DNA of 64,000 nt from Candidatus Peribacteria bacterium. GTDB lineage: Bacteria; Patescibacteriota; Gracilibacteria; UBA1369; 2-02-FULL-48-14. The notes under the pieces were generated by a model, which saw only the letters and a list, made by a program, of their open reading frames with translations, was not told the DNA's origin and did not search any database. This document shows positions 23,543-47,000 of this stretch, one piece after another. Made by a program: the position numbers and the translations under genes. The stretch spans positions 1-64,000 of the forward strand of contig CALQZQ010000001.1 in the NCBI GenBank assembly GCA_943349825.1, in the 5' to 3' direction. How positions within the stretch are numbered: position 1 is the stretch's first letter; every line of letters starts with the position of its first letter.

Positions 23543-25729
23543 ATGAAAATCACTACCGTTTATTCTTTGGGTCTCGCCTTGAGTTTTCTCAGCTTTTCCT
23601 CGGTTTCTGCTGCCAGTATAGAAAACGGCCTCATCAAAAAAAATGCTTATGAAACCGACTATTTTAGTATTGAGTTTTCGGATTTGATTTTGGACCAGAT
23701 GGATGAGGACGACAACGGGCTCCCGGATATTGTAGATACGATTGCGGAGGCGGCGGAGCACAGTCGCGACGTGGTGATCAACGATTTGAATTATCTGGAT
23801 CCTATGGAGGGTTATGATCGTAAACTCATTGTGGTCTTGGACGATAAAGACACTTATTTGAGTTCTGGAGCGATGGGCATTACGGGCCTTTTGAGCAATG
23901 GAGATCCCTTTGTGGCGATTGATCCTTGGATGGTGGAAAGTGATTTGCAAATCACCATGGGCCATGAGTATTTGCACGCGGTGCAGTTTGGTTATGACGA
24001 CGGTTTTGCTTCTGTGTCTCAGGGGATCAATTGGGCGGAGGCGACGGCCATGTGGGTGGAAGACCTGCAATACGACAGCAACAATGATTATGTGTATTAC
24101 ATCCCTGAATACTTTAACTATGTAGACTATTCTGTTTTTGCTTCGCTTTTGCCGAGTGGCTCACTCTACGAATATGGGTTGAATATTTGGCCCCGTTTTC
24201 TTTCTGAGTATTTTGAAAATGACGTGATTAAGGATATTTGGGAAGCTTATTTTGATTCTTCCACTGACTATGGAGACGACAGAAAACTTTACAATGCGGT
24301 GAATGGTGTGGTGGAGGATCACGATAATGATTTGCGTACGGTTTACCGTGATTTTAGCTTGTGGAATTTGGACCTTTCTCAATACGAGGAGGGAAACAAT
24401 TACCCCGATGTTTATACCTTGGAGGCGGAGACTTCTTCGGACTACCAAGACAACGACACAGCGTTTTCTCCGGCTCTCTTTGGCACAAACTATCTTTATT
24501 TCGACAATAGTGACGAGGACAATACTTTCTATTTTCATCTCTTAAAGCCTGAAGGGATTAGTTTTGCGGTGACCCTTGTTCCTTACGACAACGGTTCGGT
24601 GGATCTTTCTGAGAAAGAATCGCTTATTTTGGAACAGGACGGTGAGATGGATAGTATTTTGGACTTGGGCAGTCTCAAAAATGCTGATGGTGTTTATGCG
24701 GTACTGTCGCCTTTGGACAGTGATTTTGACGGGGATCATGAGAGTGATTTTGACCTGGCTTACTCGTACAAATTTTTTGCTCAATATGGGGATTCGGGCG
24801 AAGACTATAGCGACATGATTTCCTCGAGCACAGTCACCACGGAGACTACCGAGGAAAAAGAAGGAACTTCTGAGAGTTCTGTGCCCCTTTCTGACGATTT
24901 GGTGCTGACGGTGGTGAATTACGATGAAGACTCGGTGAGTTTCTCGTGGAACCGTCTGACGGATTCCGAGATCGATTCTTATGAACTTCGTTATGGTACG
25001 GAAAGTGGAGACTACAGCGATGAGCTGGAAATCGACCATGCTTACACCACGGCTGGCACGGTGTCCGGTTTGAGCGAAGGTGAGAAATACTATTTTGAGC
25101 TCGTGGCTTTGAGCAGCAGTGGAGATTCCGTGGGAAGTCCCAGCTCGGAAGTGAGCGTGACTCCGCAGGAATGGATTTTTACGGATGTGTCCTACTTGGA
25201 TGAACAGTACGACGCCATTGCTTCGCTCACGGATGAGGGTATTTTTGCCGGCTATTCCAATGGATCTTTCAAGCCGGACGACACCATCAACCGTGCTGAA
25301 CTCTTGAAGATTTTGGTGGAAGGACGCGACTTGGATCCTTCGGCGAGTACTTATAAAAATTGTTTCACCGATGTGGGTACCGAATGGTATGCGAAATACG
25401 TGTGTTACGCCAAGGCTGAGGGTTGGGTGACTGGCTACAGCGATGGCAGTTTCCGTCCAGGCAACGCCGTGAACAAAGTGGAAGCCCTCAAGATTTTGTT
25501 CCAAGTCTATGAAGCCGGCTTGCAGGATGGCGCCTCTTCCTCAGCTCTTTCGTATTCCGATTTGAGCCAAACGGCTTGGTATGCCAGCTATGTAGAGAAA
25601 GCTTCTGAACTGGGAATTTTGAGCGAAACACTCGGAGGAACTTTTGCCCCCAGCGCCAGCCGCACCCGTGGCGAAATGGCTGAAGAGCTCTATCGTTACT
25701 TGGTAGTGGAGGAGCTGATTAAGGAGTGA
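23543..25729 (+). CDS. SLH-anchored exported HExxH metalloprotease with fibronectin type III domain
   Basis: A 728-residue exported protein. A signal peptide (about 1-23) is followed by a protease-like domain: DEDDNGLPDIVDTIAEA, then the zinc motif HEYLH (141-145) and a downstream Glu166 in WAEATAMW that suits a third ligand. This arrangement resembles the MXAN_6640-type putative metalloproteases. A fibronectin type III domain (about 451-541) and three SLH modules (about 544-725) follow, so the enzyme should be fixed to the cell wall facing outward. It could process surface proteins or attack host or partner proteins. Calcium-like DEDDNGL is typical of the family N-terminus. It ends immediately before a convergent gene. 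Confidence 0.88.
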   Translation: MKITTVYSLGLALSFLSFSSVSAASIENGLIKKNAYETDYFSIEFSDLILDQMDEDDNGLPDIVDTIAEAAEHSRDVVINDLNYLDPMEGYDRKLIVVLDDKDTYLSSGAMGITGLLSNGDPFVAIDPWMVESDLQITMGHEYLHAVQFGYDDGFASVSQGINWAEATAMWVEDLQYDSNNDYVYYIPEYFNYVDYSVFASLLPSGSLYEYGLNIWPRFLSEYFENDVIKDIWEAYFDSSTDYGDDRKLYNAVNGVVEDHDNDLRTVYRDFSLWNLDLSQYEEGNNYPDVYTLEAETSSDYQDNDTAFSPALFGTNYLYFDNSDEDNTFYFHLLKPEGISFAVTLVPYDNGSVDLSEKESLILEQDGEMDSILDLGSLKNADGVYAVLSPLDSDFDGDHESDFDLAYSYKFFAQYGDSGEDYSDMISSSTVTTETTEEKEGTSESSVPLSDDLVLTVVNYDEDSVSFSWNRLTDSEIDSYELRYGTESGDYSDELEIDHAYTTAGTVSGLSEGEKYYFELVALSSSGDSVGSPSSEVSVTPQEWIFTDVSYLDEQYDAIASLTDEGIFAGYSNGSFKPDDTINRAELLKILVEGRDLDPSASTYKNCFTDVGTEWYAKYVCYAKAEGWVTGYSDGSFRPGNAVNKVEALKILFQVYEAGLQDGASSSALSYSDLSQTAWYASYVEKASELGILSETLGGTFAPSASRTRGEMAEELYRYLVVEELIKE

Positions 25730-29573: not shown

Positions 29574-31253
29574 ATGCTTGATCTGGACAAGGAGCTCGCC
29601 GCGGCGGTCCTGGAGAAAAAACTCATCACGGAGAAAACTTTGGAAAGTGTGCGCCACCGATCCGAGGCAGAAAAGGTGAGTTTGGAACAGGCTCTTTTTG
29701 AATCAGATCAGATCCCGCATGAGGTTTTGGGCCCTCTGGTGGCTGAACTCTATGGAGTTCCATTTGTAACTCTGTCGGACAAAAATATTCCGGAATCTTT
29801 GCTCCCCATTGTGCCGTATCGACTGGCTTCTTATCAGAATTTGATTCCTTTCGAACAAACGGATCACACTATGAAGGTGGCCTTCAATAACCCTAAAAGT
29901 TATGAATTGATTAACTTTTTGGAGAATAAAACGGGTTTTAAAATTGAGCCGTATTACGCCACCAAAGGGGATATTCAGAGGGCTCTGAAGGTTTATAACC
30001 GAGACATAAATCAAAAATTTGCGAAGCTTTTGGAGGGAAAAATCACGCAAGATGCTTCCAAGATTGTGGATACGATCATTTTGTTTGCGTACCAAAACAA
30101 TGCTTCCGATATTCACATTGAGCCGCACAAGGATTTTGTGGTGGTGCGTTACCGTATCGATGGACTGCTCAGTACCATTACGGAACTGCCTATGAATGTG
30201 GCCGATCTGATTTCTACTCGTATCAAGGTGCTTTCGAATCTGCGTACCGATGAACACCGTGCGGCTCAAGACGGTCGTTTTAAGATTGATCTGGAAAACA
30301 ACGAGATCACTCTGCGTGTCTCTATTGTTCCGATTTACGACGGAGAAAAGATCGTGATGCGTATTTTGTCTTCGACCAGCCAAGGACTGGATTTGGAAGC
30401 GCTGGGTTACACTACCCGTAACTTGGATGTGATCCACAATGCCATCCTCAAAACCTACGGAATCATTCTGGTCACGGGGCCTACGGGATCGGGTAAAACC
30501 ACCACGCTCTATACGGTTTTGAAGCTCCTCAATAGCCCCGAGGTGAATATCTCCACGATTGAAGATCCGATTGAGTACCGCTTGGAAGGGATCAATCAGA
30601 TTCAGGTAAATACCAAGACGAATCTGACTTTTGCGAATGGGCTTCGGTCTTTGCTTCGCCAAGATCCGGACATTGTGATGATCGGAGAAATTCGTGATGA
30701 AGAAACCGCCAGCATCGCCATCAACGCGGCTTTGACCGGACACTTGGTGCTCGCCACTCTGCACACCAACGACGCCGCTTCTACTTTGCCTCGTATGCTG
30801 GAGATGGGAACCGCCTCATTTTTGCTCGCTGCCACGGCCAAGTTGGTGGTGGCTCAGCGTCTAGTGCGAAAAATTTGTGAGCATTGTAAAGCTCCGTACC
30901 AAATGGAGTTGGAACAGTTGGATCGTTTTGGAAAAAAGTTCAATTTGAAAGAAGATTTGCTCAAGGTGCTCACGGCTTTGTCCGGGGGCACGCTGGCTCC
31001 CCAGCTGACTTTTTATAAAGGAGCCGGTTGTGATTTTTGTCACGGCAGCGGCTTTAAGGGACGTGTGGGTATTTCTGAAGTGATGGAAGTTTCCGATGAG
31101 ATCCAAAAATGTATTTTGGCCAACGATTCTCCCAAAGTGGTGGAAGAAGTGGCCAAAAAAGAAGGGATGACCACCATTTTCATGGATGGAATGACTAAAG
31201 TTTTGCAAGGAGTGACGACCATTGAAGAAATCCTTCGTGTGATGCGTTCTTAA
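29574..31253 (+). CDS. pilB: Type IV pilus assembly ATPase PilB (GspE family)
   Basis: Cytoplasmic hexameric ATPase that powers pilus extension. The 559-residue protein has an N-terminal MshEN/T2SSE-N-type domain (about 1-150), the catalytic domain with Walker A GPTGSGKTTT (about 302-311), Asp box (STIEDPIEYRLEGINQIQ), Walker B (RQDPDIVMIGEIRDEETA), His box (LTGHLVLATLHTND) and the zinc-binding tetracysteine (CEHC ... CDFC) characteristic of PilB/GspE rather than PilT. It is the first gene of the pilus locus and eight bases from pilC. No pilT (retraction) gene is in this window. Confidence 0.96.
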   Translation: MLDLDKELAAAVLEKKLITEKTLESVRHRSEAEKVSLEQALFESDQIPHEVLGPLVAELYGVPFVTLSDKNIPESLLPIVPYRLASYQNLIPFEQTDHTMKVAFNNPKSYELINFLENKTGFKIEPYYATKGDIQRALKVYNRDINQKFAKLLEGKITQDASKIVDTIILFAYQNNASDIHIEPHKDFVVVRYRIDGLLSTITELPMNVADLISTRIKVLSNLRTDEHRAAQDGRFKIDLENNEITLRVSIVPIYDGEKIVMRILSSTSQGLDLEALGYTTRNLDVIHNAILKTYGIILVTGPTGSGKTTTLYTVLKLLNSPEVNISTIEDPIEYRLEGINQIQVNTKTNLTFANGLRSLLRQDPDIVMIGEIRDEETASIAINAALTGHLVLATLHTNDAASTLPRMLEMGTASFLLAATAKLVVAQRLVRKICEHCKAPYQMELEQLDRFGKKFNLKEDLLKVLTALSGGTLAPQLTFYKGAGCDFCHGSGFKGRVGISEVMEVSDEIQKCILANDSPKVVEEVAKKEGMTTIFMDGMTKVLQGVTTIEEILRVMRS

Positions 31254-31261
31254 TTGAGCTT

Positions 31262-32476
31262 ATGAAAAAATTCCACTACGTCGTCACTAATCCCAATGGG
31301 AAAAAGCAAAAAGGAACTCTCTATGCTTCCACAAAAGAGTCGGCTATTGAAGAACTTAAAGAAGGGGGAAATATTTTGCTGACCTGTGATGAAGAAGTGG
31401 CGGAGAAGGGTTTTATGTTTGGCCTAAACCGGCCCTCTTTTTCGTTTGAAGAGAAAATGCTGATGGCCGGGCACATGGCCACGATGCTCGGGGCCGGAGT
31501 CACTCTCACCGAATCTTTGGAGATTTTGATAGATCAGACTGATTACAAACAGAATAAATTGATGTTGGAAGATGTTTTGCATCGAGTGAACGCCGGGCAA
31601 ACTTTTGCCGACAGTTTGTCGGAATACCCCGATGTTTTTTCAGAAATCTATGTGAACATGGTGGCTGTGGGGGAGAAAAGTGGAAGTTTGGTGGAAGTGC
31701 TGGCTTATTTGCAGCAACAGTTGGAGAAAGAATATGAACTTCGCCGTAAAGTGGTGGGAGCTTTGGTTTATCCGCTGGTGATCGTCTCGCTTACGGTGAT
31801 GATGGTGTTTGGCATCATGTTTTTCATCATGCCCAAGATCATGAAGATTTTTACCCAGTTTGATGTGGAGTTGCCTTTGCCCACTCAGATTCTGATGTTT
31901 TTTACCGAGTTGGCTACGGGGAAACCCCTCGTGTTTTTTGCTTCAGTGCTCGCTGTTTTGGGCTTGGCCGTTTATTTGCTCAAAGCGCAATTCATGAAGC
32001 CTTTTTGGCGAACTATACTCATGCATGCGCCTGTTTTTGGACGCCTCATGGTGGATGTGAACATGGCTCGTTTTTCTCGCAGTTTGTTCTCTTTGCTCAA
32101 AGCAGGAGTGGCCATAGATAAGGGGCTTGAAATCACCAGTAAAATGTTCAGTGACCCCTTGTATCGCGAGCTTGTCTTGCAGGCCCGTGACAAGGTTCAA
32201 AAAGGAGCTGCACTGGAAGATGCCTTCAAAGGTCATGAAAGGTATTTCCCCATTCTTGCTGTAAAAATGCTGACAGTGGGCGAAAGAACGGGTAATCTAG
32301 AACAGACTACAGAGCACCTCGCCGTTCTCTATGAGCAAAATGTCGACAACATCACGCGAAATCTTTCGGTTCTTTTGGAACCGATGCTGCTCGTGTTCAT
32401 GGGAATTCTTGTGGGAGGCGTGGCCATTTCGGTCATATTGCCGATTTATCAACTGCCCAGTCTCATCGGTCGTTAG
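31262..32476 (+). CDS. pilC: Type IV pilus inner-membrane platform protein PilC (GspF family)
   Basis: Membrane platform that couples the PilB motor to pilin insertion. The 404 residues have the short N-terminal module (FHYVVTNPNGKKQKGTLYAS) and two repeated T2SSF domains (about 65-190 and 270-395), each with 'LxxGVxLTESLEI' or 'LKAGVAIDKGLEI' and 'VGEKSGSL/VGERTGNL' signatures, plus three membrane segments. Length is standard. It lies between pilB and the minor pilins. Confidence 0.95.
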   Translation: MKKFHYVVTNPNGKKQKGTLYASTKESAIEELKEGGNILLTCDEEVAEKGFMFGLNRPSFSFEEKMLMAGHMATMLGAGVTLTESLEILIDQTDYKQNKLMLEDVLHRVNAGQTFADSLSEYPDVFSEIYVNMVAVGEKSGSLVEVLAYLQQQLEKEYELRRKVVGALVYPLVIVSLTVMMVFGIMFFIMPKIMKIFTQFDVELPLPTQILMFFTELATGKPLVFFASVLAVLGLAVYLLKAQFMKPFWRTILMHAPVFGRLMVDVNMARFSRSLFSLLKAGVAIDKGLEITSKMFSDPLYRELVLQARDKVQKGAALEDAFKGHERYFPILAVKMLTVGERTGNLEQTTEHLAVLYEQNVDNITRNLSVLLEPMLLVFMGILVGGVAISVILPIYQLPSLIGR

Positions 32477-32489
32477 TTAATCTTTTCAC

Positions 32490-32951
32490 ATGACCCTTCG
32501 CCGTCCTGCTTTCAGTTTGTTGGAGACGCTGGTGGTAGTAGCCATCATGGCTGCCGCAGTGGGGTTTAGTGTGCTTTATGCTCAGACGGATACTGTGCGA
32601 ACGGATCTGCGTACTCAGGCGGCTCTTTTTACATCTTACATTCGTGAAATGCAGACGGATGCGGCTTCTGGCAAGGGGAATACGAGTGCAGGCATTCACT
32701 TAGAGTCGGATCAGTATGTTCTCTTTCATGGAGCCAGTTACAACGCTCTTGATGCCAGTAACTTTGTGGTGGTTTTACCGAGCGTGATTCAAATCACTAA
32801 CATTAGTTTGGCTGGGGGAGGCAGTGATATCATTTTCACGAGCCCTTTGGGGGAAACTTCTCAGTCGGGATCGCTCGACTTCAGTTCTTTCTCCATTGGC
32901 CAAACTGTTCATATCACCATCAATCCTTTAGGTTCTGTCGACTATGAATAA
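32490..32951 (+). CDS. Minor pilin / pseudopilin (FimT/GspH-like)
   Basis: A 153-residue pilin-like protein: a short basic leader, prepilin cleavage region PAFSLLETLVVVAIM with Glu at the +5 position of the mature protein, a hydrophobic N-terminal helix, then a beta-rich head. It should be processed by the prepilin peptidase at 39979-40728. Size and position (first of four pilin-like genes) resemble GspH/FimT, which help prime pilus assembly. It overlaps the next gene by eight bases. Confidence 0.85.
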   Translation: MTLRRPAFSLLETLVVVAIMAAAVGFSVLYAQTDTVRTDLRTQAALFTSYIREMQTDAASGKGNTSAGIHLESDQYVLFHGASYNALDASNFVVVLPSVIQITNISLAGGGSDIIFTSPLGETSQSGSLDFSSFSIGQTVHITINPLGSVDYE

Positions 32952-34782
32952 AAAAAATGTTCATGCCGGATTTTCTTTGATTGAGGTCCTTCTGGGGCTT
33001 ACGCTTTTTGTGCTCTTTTCTGCCGGTGTTTTTTATACCGCCGTGGACACGGCGGATTCTGATTTGCGCCAAGACTTTAAATCGGAAGCGCTGAATTATG
33101 CTCAAGAGGGGCTAGAGGCCACCCGTATGATTCGCAACGTGGATTTTTTGGATCTGACTACTGGGTCTCACGGAGTGGTTTATACTGCCGGGGCCTGGGC
33201 TTTTTCCGGGACATCGGATGCCATCGATAGTTTTTATACTCGCACCGTCACGATTTCGGACGTGTACCGCGATGGTAGTAACAATATTGCTGATGTGGGA
33301 ACTTTGGATCCCATGACCAGGAAAGTGGTTTCCACGGTTTCATGGACGTGGAAGGGCTTTTTGCCAGAAGATGTGACTTTGACCACTTATTTAACAGACT
33401 GGTCCGGGGATCAATGGACGCAGACCACTTGTACCGAATTTGCAGCAGGGACTTACAGTGGTGTACAAGCCACTGGAGCCAGTTCTCCACCTGCCGACAA
33501 TTGTGTCATCACTATGACGCTTTCTGAAAGTCAGAGCAGTTTCTTCAAATCGGTGGATATTGGAGATCATGGAGTGGACGTGGTGGTCTCGGGAAACTAC
33601 GCTTACCTCGCTACGGGGAAGACTCAACAAGGCCTTGCCATCAGCGACATTTCTGTTCCTGAGAGCGCTTATGTGGTGAAACAGTTTGATATTGGAGGTA
33701 AAGGGCGTTATCTCTCTAAATCAGGAAATTATCTTTACATTGGCGTGGAAAGTTCCAGCAAAGGGCTGGCTATTGTGGACGTGAGCAATGTGAATTCGCC
33801 TGTGCTCAAAAGCCAGACCAATGTGAATGCCAGTGGAAATCAGACTTTTGTGGTGGGAAATTATCTTTATATGGGGACTCAAAGCAGTACTAAAGGGTTC
33901 ACCATTTATGATATTTCCAATCCCAGCAGCCCTGTGAAAAAGAGCGAACTCAACGTGGGTGGCATTGTGACCGCGGTGCAGGTGAGTGGAAATTATGCCT
34001 ACCTTGGTACGGGCAATAGCTCGAAAGAATTTCAAATCTTCAATATTTCCAGTCCTACTGCACCGAGTGAGGTGGGTTCCCTGAATCTTTCTAGCACAGT
34101 GCAGGCAGTTGCGTTGAATGGCGTTACCGCTTATTTGGGGCTTTCCACCAGTACCAATGGTTTCGTGACGGTGAATATTTCTAATCCTAGCAGTCTTTCT
34201 TATGGGACGGTGAACGTGAGCAATGAAATTCAAGACATTGGAGTGCTGGGCAATTACGCTTACTTGGCCTTGGATACGCAGGGCACCGGCTTGGGGGTGA
34301 TGAATATTGTTTCTCCCACGGCGCCGTTTCTCTCTTTTACTCAAGATGTACAGGGCAAGGGTACGGGGGTTTCTGTGGCGGGTTCTTATGTTTACGTTTC
34401 TCTGGACACCAGCAATAAAGGTTTGGTGATCACGGGAACTACTGTGGTGGGGGTAGCTACCAGTGGGAACTATGTTTCTTCGATTGTGGATACGGGAAGC
34501 ACGGATACGCGTTATAACTATTTGTCTTGGTCTGCGACAGTGGTTTCTGGAAGTACCATTAAGTTTCAACTTCGCACGGCCAGCACTTCCGGAGGAATAG
34601 CGAGTGCTACTTTTGTGGGACCGGATGGCACCGCGAGCACTTATTACACCACTTCTCCGACTCAGATTGTACTTTCTCCCACACGTACTGGTCAGCGTTA
34701 TGCTCAGGTGAAGGTTTTCTTCACTTCCGATGGAGTCAATTCTCCAGCGGTGGATTACTTTACTCTCGATTATCATCCTTAA
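32944..34782 (+). CDS. Large minor pilin with C-terminal LVIVD-type beta-propeller repeats
   Basis: A 612-residue protein that starts like a prepilin (HAGFSLIEVLLGLTLFVLF, Glu+5) and continues with a pilin-like head to about residue 180. Residues about 205-500 hold seven or so repeats of 'VSGNYAYLATGxxxKGLxIxDISNPSSP', the LVIVD repeat thought to form a beta-propeller. A final beta domain (about 515-612) follows. This would place a propeller at the pilus tip, a natural site for adhesion, by analogy with large tip minor pilins such as PilY1-associated systems. Overlaps on both sides indicate co-expression with neighbouring pilins. Confidence 0.85.
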   Translation: MNKKNVHAGFSLIEVLLGLTLFVLFSAGVFYTAVDTADSDLRQDFKSEALNYAQEGLEATRMIRNVDFLDLTTGSHGVVYTAGAWAFSGTSDAIDSFYTRTVTISDVYRDGSNNIADVGTLDPMTRKVVSTVSWTWKGFLPEDVTLTTYLTDWSGDQWTQTTCTEFAAGTYSGVQATGASSPPADNCVITMTLSESQSSFFKSVDIGDHGVDVVVSGNYAYLATGKTQQGLAISDISVPESAYVVKQFDIGGKGRYLSKSGNYLYIGVESSSKGLAIVDVSNVNSPVLKSQTNVNASGNQTFVVGNYLYMGTQSSTKGFTIYDISNPSSPVKKSELNVGGIVTAVQVSGNYAYLGTGNSSKEFQIFNISSPTAPSEVGSLNLSSTVQAVALNGVTAYLGLSTSTNGFVTVNISNPSSLSYGTVNVSNEIQDIGVLGNYAYLALDTQGTGLGVMNIVSPTAPFLSFTQDVQGKGTGVSVAGSYVYVSLDTSNKGLVITGTTVVGVATSGNYVSSIVDTGSTDTRYNYLSWSATVVSGSTIKFQLRTASTSGGIASATFVGPDGTASTYYTTSPTQIVLSPTRTGQRYAQVKVFFTSDGVNSPAVDYFTLDYHP

Positions 34783-35298
34783 ATGAAATTCCTGAAATCC
34801 AGGCCGGCAAGCACTTTGATTGAAATAGTGATTTATTTTGTACTCTTGGCCGTGGGCCTTTTTGTAGCCATGAATTTTGCTATTACGATCGGGGATCTTT
34901 ACGGTCAATCTTCCAACCACAACGAGCTACAAAGCAACGCGGACCTTTTGGAGAACCGCTTCAGCTATGCGGTGCAGACAGCTACCAGTGTGACTGCCGG
35001 GAGCAGTTCTTTTGGAGTGGATAGTGGTCGGCTCACCTTGGTGATGAGCGATGCCAGTAAATCACCGACGGTGTTTTATTTACAGAACGGAGTGGTTTAT
35101 ATGCAACAAGGAGTTGCTGCGGCCGTGGCTTTGACGAGTCCGGCGGTACAAGTGGATTACTTTAGACTCACGCAGATCACTGCGACCAAAGCACCCGCTC
35201 AAATTCAACTCGATGCACAACTCAGTGTTTTGGGCGTGGATAGAGACGCAATGGATGGCACCACGTCGATTCATCTCACGGTAACCCTTCGCCAATGA
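34783..35298 (+). CDS. Minor pilin (PilW/GspJ-like)
   Basis: A 171-residue pilin-like protein: basic leader, then ASTLIEIVIYFVLLAVGLFVAMNF with the Glu+5 of prepilins, and a beta-rich C-terminal part. The residue before the cleavage site is Ala rather than the usual Gly. Start ATG immediately follows the TAA of the previous gene; its end overlaps the next start (ATGA). Assigned by position and size as a PilW/GspJ-like initiator pilin. Confidence 0.8.
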   Translation: MKFLKSRPASTLIEIVIYFVLLAVGLFVAMNFAITIGDLYGQSSNHNELQSNADLLENRFSYAVQTATSVTAGSSSFGVDSGRLTLVMSDASKSPTVFYLQNGVVYMQQGVAAAVALTSPAVQVDYFRLTQITATKAPAQIQLDAQLSVLGVDRDAMDGTTSIHLTVTLRQ

Positions 35299-35681
35299 AA
35301 GCTTTTAATTCTCGAGCTTCGGTACTCCTCATGAGTGTTTTGGTCATCGGTATCTTTACCCTGTTTTTGGCCTTGGCCATGGCGGAGGTGAATCTTTCTA
35401 CGGGCTATCAGGTTTTGAATCAACACGAGGCTACTCATAGTTACTACACGGCGGAGGCTTGTATGGAAGAGAGTGTCTTGCGTTATGAACGAGACAATAC
35501 TTTTACGGGAACCACTTTGGCGGTCGATAGTGAAACGTCTTGCACCAGCACGATGACGGTCACCACCGTCACGGTGACAGTCACCAATGGGTCTTATACG
35601 GAAGTTTTTGTAGGCACGATTTCCTCTACGGCTAGCGGAACAGTGAACAATGTGCATCTTACGGGTTGGAAAGAGACCTGA
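35295..35681 (+). CDS. Minor pilin-like protein (PilX/GspK-like)
   Basis: A 128-residue protein with a short basic leader, a hydrophobic segment (SVLLMSVLVIGIFTLFLALAMAEV), then a sequence 'HEATHSYYTAEACMEESVLRYE' that matches the post-helix region of PilX/GspK-type minor pilins. The +5 Glu is absent, as in GspK-type members. A Thr/Val-rich beta tail follows. Overlaps the upstream pilin gene by four bases. Confidence 0.78.
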   Translation: MKAFNSRASVLLMSVLVIGIFTLFLALAMAEVNLSTGYQVLNQHEATHSYYTAEACMEESVLRYERDNTFTGTTLAVDSETSCTSTMTVTTVTVTVTNGSYTEVFVGTISSTASGTVNNVHLTGWKET

Positions 35682-35703
35682 TTTTCTCTACAATGGGGTA
35701 GCC

Positions 35704-37299
35704 ATGATTCCATTCCTCCGTTCCAGTGTCGTTGGTGTTGATTTCCATGATGGACTTTTGCAGCTCGTGGAGGTGCGTGCCAAAGGCAAGCAATTGGAAC
35801 TTTTGGCTTTCAACCGTTTGGATCTTCCAGAAGGTGTGATTGTGGATGGAGGTATTAAGGATGAAGATCAACTCAAGATCGGTGTGACTCATTTGTTGCA
35901 AACTGCTAATCCGCGTCCTGTGGATGGTGGAAGGGTGGTTTTAGCCCTGCCTTCTAAGCATGTCTTCACACATATTTTTAAATTTCCCTCTAGTTTTAGC
36001 CTCAAAGACATTCGTAAAGCCTTGGTTTTTGAAGTGGAAACGGTGATCCCATTTTCCATTGAGGACATGATTTGGGATTGTTATGTGCTCAGCAGTTTGA
36101 ATTCCAAAGTGGAAGGAGGTTCTCAGTCGATTTTCTTTTCCGGTGTGCCCAAAGTAGTGGCGGAGGAATATGTGCGTTTTTTCGAATCTATTGGCATTCG
36201 GCCACGGCTTTTCGCCACGCATGCCGATGCGCTAACAGCGGCTTTGGAAAGTGATTTGACGACAGAAAATAGTTTGGTTTTGGAGCTGGATCCTTATGCC
36301 AGCAACTATTTGATCATGAAAGGGAAGGTGCTGCGCTACTACCTAAGCGTTGCCGAAGGCAGCCAGTGGATGGAATCGGGATTAAAAAATCCCGCCGACC
36401 CTGAGTTTCAGACTAAGCTCAACGGTTTCGCTTTGGAACGGATCATGCAGGCCAAAAAAATCCTTGAAGAGCAGGAAGCGGATGGGCAGATGGGCCCCAT
36501 CAATCAAATTTTCTTGACGGGGGAGTATGCACATATTTCACCTTTTTATGACAAGCTTAAAATGGCTTTCCCTACGAAAAAGGTAGAGGTGGGAGATCCC
36601 AAACACCAGCTCACCGTGGACAATCGTCGCTTTTGGGAGGAGTACCAAAAACACGGAGGCAGCATTCCTTATTCAGTTTTCTTCGTGGACGCCCTGGGTG
36701 TGGCGCGTCAGTATTTATTCAATAGGCAGGGCAGTAATCTTTTGCCGGAAGCTTTGAAAAAGAGTTTTTTCTTTGAAAAAATGCAACTGCTCATGTTGCT
36801 CGGTGCCGTGCTCATGACCGTATTTTCCTTGATGGTGGCGTCTTATTTATTGATCCTTCATGGTAAATTGGTGCAAACTCGGGATGAGTTGGCTATTGAT
36901 AAGAAGCGTGTGGAGAACGTTCTTTATGGAACCCGGTACCAGGAAATCAAAGCTCAGCTGACTCAGTTCAATAATGAAATCAATCAACTCTCTCAGATTG
37001 ATGCGGCCCTCTTTTCTGTTCCGGATACCTTGAAGGAGATTTTGGAGACCCTTCCCCCCGGCATTCGTTTGACGGCTTATGTCTACGATGATGCTGCTTT
37101 GGATTTAAAAATCACTGGGGTGGCCGACAGCCGTGAAGAACTCTTAGGATTGGAGGATCAATTCAAGGCGCTTGGTTTTGTGAAGGATGTGTTTGCGCCA
37201 CTTTCAAATTACGATGAAAAACAAAATGTTTCTTTTACCATTGAACTTCAACTTTCTTTTTCCCTACTCCCTATCTATGGAAGTGCCAATCCCTCTTAA
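35704..37299 (+). CDS. pilMN: PilM-PilN fusion protein
   Basis: Residues about 1-350 are PilM, an actin-like ATP-binding protein (SSVVGVDFHDGLLQLVEV; later LTGEYAHISPFYDKL) that recruits the pilus membrane complex in the cytoplasm. After a membrane segment (about 365-391) residues about 392-531 are PilN (coiled coil, then TLPPGIRLTAYVYDDAALDLKITGVADS), which normally is a separate protein binding PilM by its N-terminal tail. Here both are one polypeptide. The ATG at 35704 is preferred to an upstream in-frame start (35650) that lies inside the previous gene. It overlaps pilO by 23 bases. Confidence 0.9.
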   Translation: MIPFLRSSVVGVDFHDGLLQLVEVRAKGKQLELLAFNRLDLPEGVIVDGGIKDEDQLKIGVTHLLQTANPRPVDGGRVVLALPSKHVFTHIFKFPSSFSLKDIRKALVFEVETVIPFSIEDMIWDCYVLSSLNSKVEGGSQSIFFSGVPKVVAEEYVRFFESIGIRPRLFATHADALTAALESDLTTENSLVLELDPYASNYLIMKGKVLRYYLSVAEGSQWMESGLKNPADPEFQTKLNGFALERIMQAKKILEEQEADGQMGPINQIFLTGEYAHISPFYDKLKMAFPTKKVEVGDPKHQLTVDNRRFWEEYQKHGGSIPYSVFFVDALGVARQYLFNRQGSNLLPEALKKSFFFEKMQLLMLLGAVLMTVFSLMVASYLLILHGKLVQTRDELAIDKKRVENVLYGTRYQEIKAQLTQFNNEINQLSQIDAALFSVPDTLKEILETLPPGIRLTAYVYDDAALDLKITGVADSREELLGLEDQFKALGFVKDVFAPLSNYDEKQNVSFTIELQLSFSLLPIYGSANPS

Positions 37300-37834
37300 A
37301 TTCGAATCCATTTTTCGCATCTGTCTTGTGCTGACTTTTGTGAGTGCCTTTGCGATCTTTTTTATTGGTCATGCCGATTCAGAATTGCGAGGGGAAGCTA
37401 AGGTCATAGAAAAGTTTTTAGAGGCAGCCGCGGATCTTCAGCCTAATTTTGAAAAAAGTTTGACGATGTATACGGAAAACACTCAAGAAACCATGGACTA
37501 CTTGGAGCTGCTTCGGCCGGAAGATGAGAATGGCTATATCCAATTCATTTCCACTGTAGAGAATTTGGGGCAAACTCAAGGAGTGAATTTGAGCCTACAA
37601 ATTCTGGATGGGGACATTGTAGTGAAAGATGAAACCGGCAGTCATTACATCGATTATAAGGTACAATTCTATGGTCGCGAAGATCAAGTTCTTAGTTTTC
37701 TTTCTGAGATGGAAGCCCTTCCGTATTTTACCCGCGTTATGGATATTCACTTCCAATCCTTTGAATTCATTGAAGCGGGTAAAGTTTCTGATGTTCCTAA
37801 TGTCACTTTAACGCTTCGACTTTATGTTAAATAA
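37277..37834 (+). CDS. pilO: Pilus alignment protein PilO
   Basis: A 185-residue bitopic membrane protein: short cytoplasmic start, TM (ICLVLTFVSAFAIFFIGHA), a coiled-coil stretch (about 35-75) and a ferredoxin-like exterior domain ending in 'VTLTLRLYVK', as in PilO, the partner of PilN. The ATG at 37277 is chosen because the longer frame runs within pilMN. It overlaps both neighbours (23 bases with pilMN, 11 with the next gene). Confidence 0.85.
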   Translation: MEVPIPLKFESIFRICLVLTFVSAFAIFFIGHADSELRGEAKVIEKFLEAAADLQPNFEKSLTMYTENTQETMDYLELLRPEDENGYIQFISTVENLGQTQGVNLSLQILDGDIVVKDETGSHYIDYKVQFYGREDQVLSFLSEMEALPYFTRVMDIHFQSFEFIEAGKVSDVPNVTLTLRLYVK

Positions 37835-38050: not shown

Positions 38051-38500
38051 ATGAAAATCTCTCCACGCCACCGAGGGTTCACCCTCATTGAAGTTTTGCT
38101 CGTAGTAGTCATCATCGCGATTCTTGCCGGAATCGTCATCATTGCCGTCAACCCGGCACGTCAGATCGCTCAGACCAATAACGCGCAACGTGACAACGAT
38201 GTCCGCGCTATTTTGGATGCGGTCCACCAATACGGTATTGATAACCGTGGAGTGCTGCCCTCTGCTATTACTGCCGTTGCTACGGTAGTGGGCAGTGGAG
38301 TTGGGGAAATTGATATTTGTGCAGATCTCGTTCCTACCTATGTTTCTGCTATGCCTTACGATCCTACGACAGCTACGGCAAGCTATACAGACTGTACGGA
38401 CTACAGCACGGGTTACACCATCGCAGTGGATGCCAACGGTCGCGTGACTGTTGCTGCTCCGGATGCAGAAGTTGCTGCCACCGTCTCGGTGACTCGTTAA
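38051..38500 (+). CDS. pilA: Major type IV pilin
   Basis: A 149-residue prepilin: basic leader, canonical cleavage site RGFTLIEVLLVVVIIAILAGIVI with Gly-1, Phe+1 and Glu+5, the hydrophobic assembly helix, and a small globular head with a C-terminal pair of cysteines spaced for a loop (DICADL ... YTDC). It is the last plus-strand gene of the pilus locus, with its own promoter and a strong terminator, as expected for the abundant structural subunit. Confidence 0.93.
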   Translation: MKISPRHRGFTLIEVLLVVVIIAILAGIVIIAVNPARQIAQTNNAQRDNDVRAILDAVHQYGIDNRGVLPSAITAVATVVGSGVGEIDICADLVPTYVSAMPYDPTTATASYTDCTDYSTGYTIAVDANGRVTVAAPDAEVAATVSVTR

Positions 38501-38955: not shown

Positions 38956-39982
38956 GGAGTTTTTTGAGTAAGATTTTGAGGTCGGCGCTGCGGTTTTTGG
39001 GACAGATGAGGGTGTGGCCGTCGGCATTCACCACCACCATGTCTTTGAGGCCGAAAGCGGCCATGAGGTCCGGGCCTTCATTGTAAAGAAGACAGCCTTC
39101 TGAGTCCACGGCCAGCACTTTGCCTTTGGTGAGGTTAGCACCGGGTTCGTTCGCGAGTTCGTCGTGCAAGGACGCAAAAGTGCCGATGTCGCTCCAGCCC
39201 AGATCCGCAGGAATGATGCGTACGCGGTGTGGGTCCACTTTTTCCATCACGCCGTAGTCGATGGAGATTTTATCGCAGAGCGGGTAGGCCTCTGAGAGTG
39301 GAGTGCCGTTTTGGATACGCACGAGTTGTTCGTAGGTTTGGGGCAGGTGTTTTTCGAATTCTTTGAGAATGGTGGAAACGCGCCAGACGTAGTAACCGGT
39401 GTTCCACAAATAGCTGTAGGAAGAAAGAAAACGCTTGGCGGTTTCGTAGTCGGGTTTTTCTTTGAAGGCTTTGAATTCGTAAACTTCCACGCCGTTTTCT
39501 TCTTTGAGCATGCGCCCGATGCGCACGTAGCCCAAGTTGGTGTTGGGGTATTTGGCTTTCACTTCCATGATGTTGAGGGTGTCCTCTTTTTCAGCGAGAG
39601 CTGCTGCCGCTTCTAATTTTTCGCGGAATTCTTTTTCGTCTTGAACCAGGTGATCGGCGTAGACCACGGCCATGATGGCGTCTGGATTTTTTTGGGCAAT
39701 GAGGGCGGCAGCCAGGCCGATGGAAGGGCCGGTGTCTTGCACAGTGGGTTCGAGGATGAGGTTTTCGGGGCTAAGCTCGGGGATTTGTTCGCGGACCAAG
39801 CTTTCGTACTCTTTGTTCGTGCAAATGGTGATATTTTCGATGCCTACAAAAAGCACGCGCGCTACGGTTTCTTGGAGCATGGTTTTGCTGGAGACCAGCT
39901 TTTGAAACTGTTTAGGTTTTTCTTTGGAACTCATGGGCCAGAGCCGAGTGCCGGCGCCGCCTGCGAGAATGACGATGTTCAT
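38921..39982 (-). CDS. manC: Mannose-1-phosphate guanylyltransferase
   Basis: Makes GDP-mannose from mannose-1-phosphate and GTP for surface polysaccharide or glycoprotein synthesis. The 353-residue protein has the nucleotidyltransferase signature GGAGTRLWPMSSKEKPKQF (8-26), then the metal-site 'VVYADHLVQDEKEF' and the conserved 'FKEKPDYETAKRFL ... YLWNTGYYVW' motif. In many bacteria this domain is fused to the cupin isomerase that here follows as a separate overlapping gene. It overlaps the end of the prepilin peptidase gene by four bases. Confidence 0.92.
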   Translation of the reverse strand: MNIVILAGGAGTRLWPMSSKEKPKQFQKLVSSKTMLQETVARVLFVGIENITICTNKEYESLVREQIPELSPENLILEPTVQDTGPSIGLAAALIAQKNPDAIMAVVYADHLVQDEKEFREKLEAAAALAEKEDTLNIMEVKAKYPNTNLGYVRIGRMLKEENGVEVYEFKAFKEKPDYETAKRFLSSYSYLWNTGYYVWRVSTILKEFEKHLPQTYEQLVRIQNGTPLSEAYPLCDKISIDYGVMEKVDPHRVRIIPADLGWSDIGTFASLHDELANEPGANLTKGKVLAVDSEGCLLYNEGPDLMAAFGLKDMVVVNADGHTLICPKNRSADLKILLKKLHESANGNQGNP

Positions 39983-40728
39983 AGGCTCAGATAAAACGCG
40001 AGGAGTTGATCACTCCAGAAGAAGCTTAACAGAGTTCCCAAAACGAGGAAAGGACCCAAGGGCACGGCGGTTTGGCCGTCGGCTTTTTTGGTGGCCAAGA
40101 GCACGATTCCGATGAGACTGCCCAAGATGTAGCTGAGTAAAAGTGCAAGTAAAGTAGCTTTCCAACCGAGCATGGCGCCCATGAAAGCTCCGATGCGGAG
40201 GTCTCCACTCCCAATCCATTTTCCTTTGGAAATTAGGTATTGCGCGCCAAAAAAAGCTACGGGAATGGCAGCTCCCAGGAGGCTGTCTTGAAGATGGCCC
40301 ATTTGCCAAGCCAAAAACAGAGCATAAACGATTCCCGGGGCCATCACCGCGTCGTGGATTTCTTTGTAGCGCAGGTCGTAGAAGAAGATGAAAACTAAAA
40401 CGGCGAAGAGAGGGGCGAGCCAGAGAAAATTGATCCAGTCGGCGGTGTTCAAGAATACACTGCCAAAGAGCAGGGCGGTGGCGAGTTCGGTGAGCGGGTA
40501 CCAGGCCGTGATGGGCTTTTTGCAGTAACGGCAACGGCCGCGGAGAGCCAGGTAGCTGAGGAGAGGAATCAGATCCAGTATGCCCAAGGTGTGGTGGCAG
40601 TGGGGGCACTCGGAGCGGCCCGCCACGATTCCTTTTTTATCTTCGTGGAGCCGAGGAATGAGCATGCTGAGGAAGCTGCCTACGATGAGGCCGAGAATCA
40701 TGCTGCCGATGAATTGCAGGGTGTTCAT
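39979..40728 (-). CDS. pilD: Type IV prepilin peptidase / N-methyltransferase
   Basis: Membrane aspartic protease that removes prepilin leaders, and usually methylates the new N-terminus. The 249 residues have the N-terminal cytoplasmic domain with two CxxC zinc pairs (Cys41/44 and Cys66/69; ECPHC ... CRYC), and the catalytic aspartates Asp118 (FYDLRYKEI) and Asp176 (GSGDLRIG) in a multi-spanning core. Both domains are present, so both activities are expected. Although on the other strand, it serves the pilins at 32490-38500. Confidence 0.95.
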   Translation of the reverse strand: MNTLQFIGSMILGLIVGSFLSMLIPRLHEDKKGIVAGRSECPHCHHTLGILDLIPLLSYLALRGRCRYCKKPITAWYPLTELATALLFGSVFLNTADWINFLWLAPLFAVLVFIFFYDLRYKEIHDAVMAPGIVYALFLAWQMGHLQDSLLGAAIPVAFFGAQYLISKGKWIGSGDLRIGAFMGAMLGWKATLLALLLSYILGSLIGIVLLATKKADGQTAVPLGPFLVLGTLLSFFWSDQLLAFYLSL

Positions 40729-42625: not shown

Positions 42626-44023
42626 TTAAATGCCCATCACTACGAGTGAACGGTTTTCTCCTTGCAGGCCCAGGTAAACAACGGTGCCTTTAACAGTTTT
42701 TGTTTTTTTGAGAAAAGCTTTCACTTCGTCGCTGCGCAGGGGGCCTTTGTGCACTAGAATTTTTTCTACTCCCCAGTGCAGGTGCAGTAGGCGAGCGGTT
42801 TCTTGGTAAGGAGTCACAATAAACACCGGTAGGCTGGGGCGCATGCGGAGGGCTGCACGGGCGGTGTAGCCATGGTGCGTGCCCAAAATCAGAGCTTTTG
42901 CGCCAATATCATTGGCCAGTTCGATGGCTTCTTTGGCCATATGGTGGTCGTGCATCCAATCTTTGGTGGGGGTCAGGGCGATTGGCTGAGTCCATTGATA
43001 GTCGTTTATGGCGGCTTCCGTGCTTTCGGCCACACGAGCCAAAGTTTGCACCGCTTTTATGGGATATTTTCCTACGGCACTTTCGTTGGAAAGCATGAAT
43101 CCATCGGCTTGTTCGAAGACCGCGGTGGCGGCATCGCTCATTTCCGCGCGAGTGGGAAGGGGACTGTTCGTCATGGATTCCAGTACTTGAGTGGCGACGA
43201 TCACGGGTTTGCCCAGTTCGCGGCCCATGGCAAGGATGCGTCTTTGTTCCACAGGCACTTGTTCTCCGGGAATTTCAATGCCCAGGTCACCACGGGCAAC
43301 CATGAGTCCGTCCGCTGCCGCTGCGATTTCGCGCAAATTTTTGAGGGCTTTGGGGCGTTCGATCTTGGCCACCAAAAAAACGGGACGCTTGGTCCAACGG
43401 GCGATCAGCTTTTGCACACGCAAAATGTCCTCGGCTTTTTCTACAAAAGAAAGAGCCACGGCATCCACTTTGAGTTTGAGAACGCCCATGCGTAAATCGG
43501 CATGGTCTTTTTTGGAAAGGGTTTCGCTGGAGGGGAGAGCAGAATCGGGAATATTCACGCCTTTGTGGCGTTTGAGCAGGCCACCCACTTCTACTTTTGC
43601 GCGGATGTCCTCTCCTTTTATGGACAAAATTTTTGTTCGTATCAAGCCGTCTTCGATCAACAGAGGCTGGCCGGCTTTGAGAATACGGGTGAGGGGGGCG
43701 TAAGGAATGGGGATTCGCCCTTTGTTGACGGTTTTCCCCGTCCAAAAAGTCACGAGCTCACCGCGTTTTATAAGGATGCCCTCCGGAGCGATTTCGCCCA
43801 GGCGGATTTTGGGGCCTTGAAGATCCAGCAAAGTCAGGATGGTTTTTCCACTTTCACCTTCGATTTCGCGAAGCTTATCCACCATGCCTTTGAACTGTTC
43901 GTAGTTCCCGTGGGAACAATTGAGGCGAGCTGTATTCATGCCCGCCTTCACGAGTGCCACTAGGGTCGCTTTGTCTTGCGACGCGGGACCCAGCGTGGCG
44001 ATGATTTTAGTGTGTCGGTTCAT
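42626..44023 (-). CDS. pyk: Pyruvate kinase
   Basis: Last step of glycolysis: phosphoenolpyruvate plus ADP to pyruvate plus ATP. The 465 residues include the N-terminal TKIIATLGPAS, the GMNTARLNCSHG substrate segment, the catalytic Lys in VAKIERPKAL, the metal-binding MVARGDLGIEIP signature, and the C-terminal domain with 'ALILGTHHGYTARAALRMRPSLPVFIVTP'. Length is typical. The ATG overlaps the stop of the giant beta-helix gene (ATGA), so translation is coupled to a surface protein, an odd pairing. Confidence 0.96.
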   Translation of the reverse strand: MNRHTKIIATLGPASQDKATLVALVKAGMNTARLNCSHGNYEQFKGMVDKLREIEGESGKTILTLLDLQGPKIRLGEIAPEGILIKRGELVTFWTGKTVNKGRIPIPYAPLTRILKAGQPLLIEDGLIRTKILSIKGEDIRAKVEVGGLLKRHKGVNIPDSALPSSETLSKKDHADLRMGVLKLKVDAVALSFVEKAEDILRVQKLIARWTKRPVFLVAKIERPKALKNLREIAAAADGLMVARGDLGIEIPGEQVPVEQRRILAMGRELGKPVIVATQVLESMTNSPLPTRAEMSDAATAVFEQADGFMLSNESAVGKYPIKAVQTLARVAESTEAAINDYQWTQPIALTPTKDWMHDHHMAKEAIELANDIGAKALILGTHHGYTARAALRMRPSLPVFIVTPYQETARLLHLHWGVEKILVHKGPLRSDEVKAFLKKTKTVKGTVVYLGLQGENRSLVVMGI

Positions 44024-47000
44024 TTACGAGAAGGGGTCTTCTTGCGGAAGTATAGTCCTACTGCGGCAAGACTGGATAGCACTGCGATACTGCCGAGGAC
44101 AAGAGTCCAAGGAGAGGTTCCACTGGTTTGTCCGCTCACGAAGGCTTCGTTGGTGACGTTGAAGGAAACTTGAGTGGGGTTGCTGGTCTTGTTCGTAGTG
44201 GGATCGATGGCGTACCAAGTGACCGTGTGAGGACCTACTTCAAGGTCTTCTGCCGGTTCGGCGTAAAGGATTTGATCGTCTGCATCAGCGATGAGTATTT
44301 GGCTGTAGACCGTGCTTCTGAAGGATACGAGCACAATATAACCTTTTTCAGTAGTCAGGTCGATGGCGGGGGTGGCATCTGTAACGTTACCCGTCTTGAA
44401 GGCAAGACTGATGTACTCGGGACGTTTTGTGCCTTCCCACACGCTTACTGTGTAAGGTTCCGTGATGTCTTCCATATTCTCTTCGGTTCCTTGAATTCCT
44501 ACGAGGGTATGAGTTCCTGGTTCGAGAGCCACATCGGTATAGATGCTGATGAGCCCTGTGCCGTCTGAGACAGTGGCACCGAGCAAAGTGAGGGTTCCGT
44601 CCTCGCTCACTTCGTAGAGTCCTACGTCGGAATTTGGAGTGGTGCTGCCTAGCACGAAGATTTCTCCTTGGCTTTGTTCATCTGGCACATTGAGCGTGAA
44701 GCCGCTACCCGCAGAACCGCCGTTGTTGGGGTCGGAATCTCTGTAAATGACTTCTTCACCGTCGGATACTCCGTCGGCGTCGGAGTCGTCGTCTGCAGGG
44801 TCAGTACCAATGGCGAGTTCATACTCATCAGGAAGCGTGTCTCCATCGTAGTCGGAGCTTCCAGGAGCTAGGGCGATTTGTTTTTCTTCCATCCAGTTGG
44901 TGAGAGTGATGGAATCTAAGTTGTCCAAAGGATTGTTGTAGACGAGAGGTTCTTTATCCAGATTGTCTGGGATCTTATCTCCATCGGTGTCGTATTTTTT
45001 GGGATGGAACCCGAGGAATTGGATTTCGTCGAAGTCACTGAGGCCGTCGGCATCGGTGTCTTTCATTTTAGGGTTGCTGCCCGCTAAGATTTCTTCACTG
45101 TTGAGCAGTCCGTCGTTGTCGTCATCTTCACTGAGATCGGCTTCCGTTGCGTCGGCGCCCAACTTGATTTGGATCAGCTTGATGGGGATGCCTGCTAAGG
45201 TTTTGTCGCCGAGGAATTTAGCTTTGAGGAATTTTGCATCGTAGACATCCTTGCGTGCCGGTTTTGCAGGCATGGTGTCACGAATGCTCACCGGCTTTAT
45301 TGCGATAGGCTGAATGTACTTTGTGATTCCACTGTAGAAGTTTTTCACTTTGGGAGTAGTGATGACTGGTTGGGTTGTGGTTTGCGTTGTTGTCCCGACT
45401 GTGGTGTTTGTGGAGGAAGAGTTGGAAGTGGTGGGTTCTACTGTTGTAGTAGGTTCTACGGTTGTGGGTGCGGGTTCTGTTGTGGGTTCAACAGGGGTGT
45501 CTACTGGATCTGCCACTTCAATGTCTCCGGCAATGGCAATGGGGTCTTCACCCAAGTCGCCGGTGTCGATGGGGTCTTCGGTTGGTGTGCTGGGTTTAGG
45601 CGGGGTGATTCCACTGCCGCTGCCGCCCCCTCCTCCGACTGATGGGGTTACTGCTACGCCTTCAATGCCAGTGATGGTAGCTGTTGCTGCACTGGAAACA
45701 TTGGACATGGCGTCCACGAGGGTGACACTGAAGGTATTGGTGCCTAAAATGAGCGCCACTGTAGTGGAAAAGCTCGTGTCTGCAGCGACGATGTTACTTG
45801 TGGCTACCCCGTTTACATAGACCGTGGCACCGACTTCTCCTACGCCGTAAATGGCGGTGGTGCTTCCCGCAATCCCTGAACTAGCGTAGTTGATGCTGGT
45901 TGGAGTGGCTGGCGCCGTAGTGTCCACAGGAATATTGGTGAAGGCAGTCGATCCAGAAGTACTTCCTCCGGCTGATGTGGAAAATGCAGTGATTTGAGTT
46001 CCTCCTGTGTCGGTGACACTGGTGGAGAAGTTTCCATTGCCGTCGGCGACGACGGTGGCCTTCAGTTGGCCGCCTGGGCCGCCGGGTGAGTTTAGAACGT
46101 AGATGTGTACAGTACTGTTGGCTGGGGCGGTTCCGCCAACGTTGAAGCTGTTGGGATTACTTCTCAAAATAGACGTGAAAGTGGGGCTTGCCCAATTTTC
46201 ATTGGAAGCCCCCTGCCTTTGAGCATAACCGTTCCCTCCTCCCACTGCGTAAAAGTTGTTATTGAAAGTGTTGAAGTTTCCTCCGTTGGAGATGATCCCA
46301 TATTGTCCGCCGGCGATGTTGATTCCATTGCCTTGAACCAGGTTACTGGCAGCCGTACCTTGGAATTGTATGGCATTGTTGACGTTGATGAGATTTGGGA
46401 CGAATTGGAAGTCTTTGTTGTAACCGAAATAGCCGCTCAAAATTTGATTTGAGTTCGAGTCGACTCGAAGTCCAAAACCACCGTTGGCATCGATGATATT
46501 GCGGCAGGTTGTGCACCCGATAGCCCCCAATATATTACTGTCTCCACTTTGTAGGTAGACTCCACCAAGCGCGTTGTTTAAAGGGGTATAACCGTCTGAA
46601 GCCAGTCCAATGTTGCTTCCACCTATGTTTGTGACGGTAGCTCCATTGATGAGGATGCCGTAGCCCCCGTTGCCAGAACTGACATTTCCTCCCGTAGCGC
46701 CCCCGATGACAACGCCTGAAATGGTGCCCCCTTGGAGTAAGATCCCCGCGGGACCCGCGTTGGGAATGGCTTGTGGCCCAGTGGCAGCTTGACCGATCCA
46801 GTTGCTTTGAATCGTTCCCGCCGTGATATTTCCGAATCCTCCGCTGGCGTCTACCTGAATTCCCGAACCACTATTTCCGGAAATCACGTTCCCTTCAGCG
46901 GCGGTGGGTCCGCCTATTAAAAATCCTGTAGCTTCTGCTTTGATCCCTGCTTGACCATTGGGTTTGGCTGAAGCGCCGTTCTGGTCTGTACCTATGAAAT

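Follow-up and report, generated by a model that had tools for sequence, protein, structure and literature searches.

A gene at positions 32944 to 34782 of the forward strand in the analyzed window, which comprises the first 64,000 nucleotides of contig CALQZQ010000001.1 from a Candidatus Peribacteria bacterium, encodes a prepilin of 612 residues with a predicted seven-bladed propeller of the LVIVD type. Under the reading that we favor, to which we assign a probability of about 0.6, this propeller pilin is the I subunit of an H-I-J-K set of minor pilins and presents its PilY1-like propeller in cis, for contact, at the tip of a dedicated pilus. We infer the binding and the tip location, whereas the prepilin signal, the repeats, the gene order and the distribution of the genes among genomes are results of the computation.

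The propeller pilin and its domains

The open reading frame begins with ATG, shares its first 8 bp with the end of the upstream pilin gene and is followed without a gap by the next pilin gene. The initial annotation described a prepilin helix with Glu at +5 at the beginning of a 612-residue protein, and this description holds: the N-terminus is MNKKNVHAG/FSLIEVLL, with cleavage between G9 and F10, and the Glu at +5 (E14) is invariant in the alignment. The prepilin motif narrowly exceeds the cut-off of NCBIfam TIGR02532 (16.6 bits vs 16.3) and is narrowly below that of Pfam N_methyl (19.0 vs 21.2). The gene and its parts are as follows.

32944-34782, +: propeller-bearing prepilin, putative I (GspI/PilV-like) subunit of the minor-pilin set (open reading frame; PF08309; TIGR02532; orthologues)
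32944-32970, +: prepilin leader, residues 1-9, cut before F10 (sequence; alignment invariants)
32971-33423, +: pilin module, residues 10-160, GspI-like fold (AlphaFold2 models; 2ret_G, 5vtm_V, 5bw0_D)
33424-33522, +: linker, residues 161-193, with C163 and C187 kept in close relatives (alignment invariants)
33523-34455, +: predicted seven-bladed LVIVD propeller, residues 194-504 (model, blade listing, structure match, PF08309)
34456-34779, +: C-terminal beta domain, residues 505-612 (predicted local distance difference test score, pLDDT, mostly 73-92 in the model; conserved in all orthologues)

The match to the LVIVD repeat family is far above the chance level (PF08309, E 9.5e-36, 121.3 bits vs a cut-off of 20.2, six stretches), and the propeller pilin is the sole LVIVD protein in the 1.25 Mb genome. 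In the AlphaFold2 model (mean pLDDT 87.6, alignment of 15 sequences), the blades begin at residues 210, 253, 298, 342, 386, 429 and 473, and strand 201-204 probably closes blade 7. VIA-align superposes the propeller on seven-bladed WD40 structures (Z 34, 279 residues, root-mean-square deviation 1.8 Å). Thus, the LVIVD-type beta-propeller that the initial annotation had read from the repeats is recovered in both the family match and the model, and the blade count that it called for is seven. No tandem repeats were found at the DNA level in the gene, so the blades are diverged repeats. The propeller is nearly constant in length among the orthologues (308-311 residues). A sequence search of the PDB yielded no relatives for the whole propeller pilin or its profile, and a Pfam scan gave no match for residues 505-612, the C-terminal beta domain. 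The protein is therefore built as a modular pilin, with an N-terminal prepilin motif (IPR012902 type) containing Glu5, a pilin module that consists of a long N-terminal helix and a beta sheet in the models, and an additional, WD40-like domain that is not specific to pili.

The nearest named relatives are metagenome-assembled genomes (MAGs) of Candidatus Peregrinibacteria and Gracilibacteria, in agreement with the origin from the Candidate Phyla Radiation (CPR) that had been proposed from the sequence. The search for pilin-LVIVD fusions in related genomes, also suggested at that stage, showed that the 612-residue architecture is kept in more than 20 genomes at 31-50% identity; in the genome scan, these relatives were found with a nine-sequence alignment, whereas a single-protein query matched nothing. 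All the compared genomes are assemblies, mostly MAGs, with mechanical gene calls. One orthologue, of 776 residues (L070:3586-5916), contains an additional domain between the pilin module and the propeller. An antisense open reading frame (33721-34920, -), with a GTG start and no support, was taken as spurious, and a phage origin was rejected, with no tblastn match for the propeller pilin in 50,697 phage records.

The pilin module is modeled as a helix (residues 12-66) followed by an antiparallel sheet (74-160). When this module was folded alone, its best structural matches were 2ret_G, 5vtm_V and 5bw0_D (Z 8.1, 1.7-2.3 Å, 74-76 residues), that is, EpsI/EpsJ entries and XcpV, corresponding to GspI; 5vtm and 5bw0 carry the label 'Type II secretion system protein I'. 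The next matches were another competence pilin (Z 7.6) and, as the first unrelated, non-pilin chain, one with Z 5.1, a separation of GspI from the other chains that comes from the second aligner and not from Foldseek. This fold, together with the location of the gene between H-type and J-type pilins, suggests a pilin of the GspI/PilV type. Because the Foldseek scores are weak for such a small fold, we consider the match to be support rather than proof.

Among the structural matches of the propeller is also the seven-bladed YncE of Escherichia coli, which was solved with DNA (3vh0, Z 32.8). Given that ComEC is encoded elsewhere in the genome, this could be a competence pilus with a propeller that binds DNA at the tip, as thought for the large ComZ-type pilin of Thermus. 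We regard this possibility as highly improbable. All the orthologues have an acidic propeller (net charge -4 to -40), which speaks against a DNA ligand; matches among seven-bladed structures are generic and uninformative with regard to the ligand; and the relatives that lack this pilus retain other pilin systems. We also compared loop variability among the orthologues. The BC and DA loops are more variable than the AB and CD loops (mean entropy 1.70 vs 1.36, p 0.01), but this difference was dropped as a sign of a binding face because a conserved NPxxP motif in the CD loops may cause it alone.

An accessory pilus operon with an H-I-J-K set

The propeller pilin belongs to an operon with the gene order PilB, PilC, H, I (the propeller pilin), J, K, PilMN, PilO and pilin, with PilD nearby.

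29574-31253, +: PilB extension ATPase (T2SSE E 7e-129; TIGR02538 E 1e-160)
31262-32476, +: PilC platform protein (T2SSF E 7e-57)
32490-32951, +: H (GspH/FimU-like) minor pilin, Glu5 present (FSLLE) (TIGR01708 E 1e-5, below cut-off; TIGR02532 over cut-off)
34783-35298, +: J (GspJ/PilW-like) minor pilin, Glu5 present (STLIE) (position; weak N_methyl; sequence)
35295-35681, +: K (GspK/PilX-like) minor pilin, no Glu5 (sequence, orthologues; weak NCBIfam ComGG match)
35650-37299, +: PilM-PilN fusion; the true start may be downstream of the annotated one (PilM_2 E 1e-11, PilN E 5e-4)
37187-37834, +: PilO-like protein; overlaps the previous gene, true start probably later (position, orthologues)
38051-38500, +: GspG/PilA-like pilin, probable major pilin (N_methyl E 6e-9; TIGR01710 E 8e-11)
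39979-40728, -: PilD prepilin peptidase, near the operon (A24_N_bact E 3e-29; Peptidase_A24 E 7e-13)

Accordingly, the three ordinary small minor pilins noted around the gene at the outset are H, J and K, and a GspG-like pilin follows farther downstream. The full gene order is kept in about 20 related genomes; the PilD gene is a conserved neighbor also in genomes without the operon. The PilB-PilC-H-I-J-K core recurs in 20 further loci of other CPR families, with a long pilin between the H-type and J-type pilins; these loci were annotated by profiles from the operon genes, some of them end at contig edges, and in one (L222) I and J are exchanged. H, I and J have Glu5 and K lacks it, both in this operon and in all the CPR loci that were examined. 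Lack of Glu5 is a mark of GspK; it is likewise the mark of PilX, a feature that has been described in Myxococcus (PMC7541494).

The loci also yielded several observations on individual genes. A locus labeled Nitrospirota (L063) contains the entire Peregrinibacteria operon and is probably mis-binned. In L054:584-2327, the same operon position is occupied by two tandem I-type pilins of 288 and 289 residues with a common, non-propeller C-terminal domain. The K-type pilin of one relative has grown to 371 residues (L037:6678-7793), so a second subunit of the set can also enlarge. In G003, pilB lies in two overlapping frames (L041:5691-7500), through either a frameshift or a sequencing error.

PilY1 and a set of four minor pilins prime the pilus in Myxococcus and then stay at the tip as a cap (PMC7541494). 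By analogy, we propose the following assembly. The H-I-J-K set would prime and cap a type IV pilus made from its own accessory operon. With H, J and K, the I subunit would be the first to enter the pilus, and as the set is pushed out, a propeller would come to lie at each pilus tip. There, it would do in cis what a separate PilY1 does at the tips of diderm pili, namely, make the first contact with a target surface or cell, toward which the bacterium would subsequently be pulled by retraction through PilT, encoded elsewhere in the genome. The initial annotation had stated that a pilin of this size can only sit at the tip. The neighboring genes do match the subunits of a tip complex, by the GspI-like fold, the H-I-J-K order and the K subunit without Glu5, but 'only' was an overstatement of what is a modeling argument. 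The tip argument has been made for a related pilin, for which a position in the shaft was allowed given a flexible linker (PMC8179133).

Several points weigh against the tip-display reading. A flexible linker could permit a shaft position here as well, and the AlphaFold predicted template modeling score of 0.65 leaves the orientation of the pilin relative to the propeller uncertain. Foldseek ranks the GspI match weakly (E 0.26) and gives no significant match for the pilin half. In the NCBIfam scan, the GspI equivalog model TIGR01707 is unmatched, with only TIGR02532 listed, and we therefore say that the protein occupies the I position rather than that it is GspI. A genome of the same genus lives without this pilus.

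The operon is accessory and, in the genomes examined, either occurs as a unit or is missing altogether. Its 9 kb lie between the SecDF genes and a cupin gene in the window. In G005, a genome of the same family that is approximately 100% complete, the SecDF and cupin genes adjoin, with a gap of about 147 bp, and in G001, of the same genus, unrelated genes are found at this site. The relatives without the propeller pilin also have no orthologous PilC, with best matches at 28-35% identity vs 43-49% in close cassettes; in G001, G002 and G005, the best PilC matches are orthologous to the two other pilin systems of the genome. The propeller distances track those of PilB (r 0.94) and PilC (r 0.93) across 12-13 genomes, and therefore the propeller has stayed with its pilus in the compared genomes.

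Such an accessory distribution would also fit niche-specific adhesion, in which case the propeller could be an adhesin whose target is an abiotic surface, the biofilm matrix or a sister cell and not a host microbe. Groundwater is the source of many Peregrinibacteria, and LVIVD proteins elsewhere are secreted surface proteins of free-living archaea and bacteria. However, the known cultured members of the CPR live on other microbes, and the sole propeller pilin that has been tested acts in host binding (PMC12206443), so that we consider this alternative to be quite unlikely.

Three other genes in the window deserve mention. The product of 23543-25729 (+) is a surface protein of 728 residues with three S-layer homology repeats and a fibronectin type III domain, relatives of which recur near the pilus operon in other genomes. 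A 1288-residue protein with bacterial TSP3 repeats (44020-47886, -) is encoded beside pyruvate kinase and is kept in relatives without the pilus. The gene at 60166-62700 (+) encodes a TraG/TraC (VirB4-like) type IV secretion ATPase of 844 residues, which probably belongs to the CPR type IV secretion system described previously (PMC12102498).

The I position across the CPR

The PilY1 family (PF05567) was not found in the propeller pilin, its own genome or 12 related Peregrinibacteria (13 genomes), whereas the control genome, the Desulfobacteraceae MAG G425, was positive. In the phylum of this control, the pilin module has weak matches in 35 of the 148 genomes, all in frames of 119-322 residues. 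Two loci of that phylum contain an I-type pilin of 131 or 137 residues in an H-I-J-K group, with a separate PilY1 of 1356 or 1295 residues directly behind the group; in L240, one of the two loci, I and J have traded places. This contrast is most simply read as a propeller that, in the CPR, is borne by the I pilin rather than by PilY1. Because the PilY1 and LVIVD propellers belong to different families, this would be a case of replacement or convergence rather than a traced fusion.

Across a phylum-wide CPR sample, the pilin-module profile (A4) has matches in 280 of 379 genomes at E 1e-6. Among the strongest 115, 76 are in frames of at least 400 residues and 32 in frames of 260 residues or fewer, a biased size count, since long pilins were the source of the profile, with other pilins included among the weaker matches. 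LVIVD repeats are present in 40 of the 65 long I-type pilins, and others bear laminin-G/lectin, YCF48-type, DUF4082 and further domains. LVIVD as such occurs in 78 of the 379 genomes, including giant frames of more than 3000 residues with many repeats that are apparently not pilins (G304:C4, G112:C3, G359:C2 and G213:C12). In the pilin-module tree, the LVIVD label must change at least 5 times according to the well-supported branches and 17 times on the best tree. Given the short alignment and the poor resolution, the tree shows only that modules were gained, lost or swapped several times. The I position looks like a platform on which the ligand is changed by swapping the display module.

These comparisons bear on a structural explanation, whereby the propeller serves chiefly to prime and cap the pilus: it would nucleate assembly and, like a cork, halt retraction at the membrane, with any adhesion being secondary. 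PilY1 has such a role in Myxococcus (PMC7541494), and a structural part would be expected to have a near-constant length and to co-evolve with PilB and PilC, as the propeller does. Yet, elsewhere in the CPR, the same position has unrelated modules or no propeller; the I-type pilins in the two remaining pilin clusters of the genome (contigs C2 and C4) are of ordinary size, at 217 and 174 residues; and the pilus of Nanosynbacter lyticus TM7x still assembles without its propeller pilin, PilX2 (PMC12206443). We therefore consider a mainly structural role unlikely.

More broadly, and tentatively, we suggest that, across the CPR, the pilin in the GspI/PilV position might have taken over the job of PilY1, as a standard tip-display platform that mostly bears propellers and in which exchange of the outer module sets the host or surface that is gripped. 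If the I pilin is such a platform, gene position alone would name the candidate contact protein of each genome, and host recognition in the CPR would become testable, since the type of module could be compared with the host. The scheme would also explain, in simple evolutionary terms, a pilus that has retained the H-I-J-K tip set while apparently lacking PilY1.

Comparison with known propeller proteins and pilins

An LVIVD-bearing pilin as such is already known, and the propeller pilin is another case. A 2021 survey of modular pilins includes an 860-residue pilin of Falkowbacteria with 12 copies of IPR013211 (PMC8179133), which is the LVIVD repeat (PMC10210494). There, the repeat was merely tallied as a 'motif of unknown function', without fold, slot or operon (PMC8179133); structure prediction for the LVIVD family has also been published (PMC8078820). 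Our literature search, which covered few subscription journals, yielded no paper that places the propeller pilin in the I slot, or that reports its recurrence across the CPR or its gene position in relation to PilY1. Other modular pilins, such as PilB of Streptococcus sanguinis, likewise have a bulky functional domain downstream of a small pilin module and have been proposed for the tip, but the domain in PilB is vWA rather than an LVIVD propeller (PMC8179133).

The closest functional precedent comes from TM7x, whose PilX2, likewise a minor pilin of a CPR bacterium, has a seven-bladed propeller and belongs to a second pilus that is dispensable; deletion reduces the bound host cells from 10.6% to 4.6%, and the authors compared PilX2 in function with PilY1 (PMC12206443). 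The repeats of PilX2 are of the RCC1 type as opposed to LVIVD, and a Pfam scan of the propeller pilin gave no RCC1 family. Furthermore, PilX2 was assigned no slot in the tip complex and was reported to lack a predicted PilD signal (PMC12206443), whereas the prepilin motif is clear here. Among the CPR loci, one I-type pilin with another kind of propeller-like repeat (SGWAVGESGKIFNYDG, YCF48/RCC1-like; L053:1-2046) is possibly the counterpart of PilX2.

The GspI pseudopilins EpsI and XcpV share with the propeller pilin the fold of the pilin half and the gene position between H and J, but have about 120 residues and no additional domain, compared with 612 residues and a propeller. In the PilY1/PilC adhesins that function with FimU-PilV-PilW-PilX, a propeller protein is likewise located at the tip on an H-I-J-K set of minor pilins (PMC7541494). 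PilY1, however, is a separate, non-pilin protein, whereas the propeller of the present system is built into the I pilin itself.
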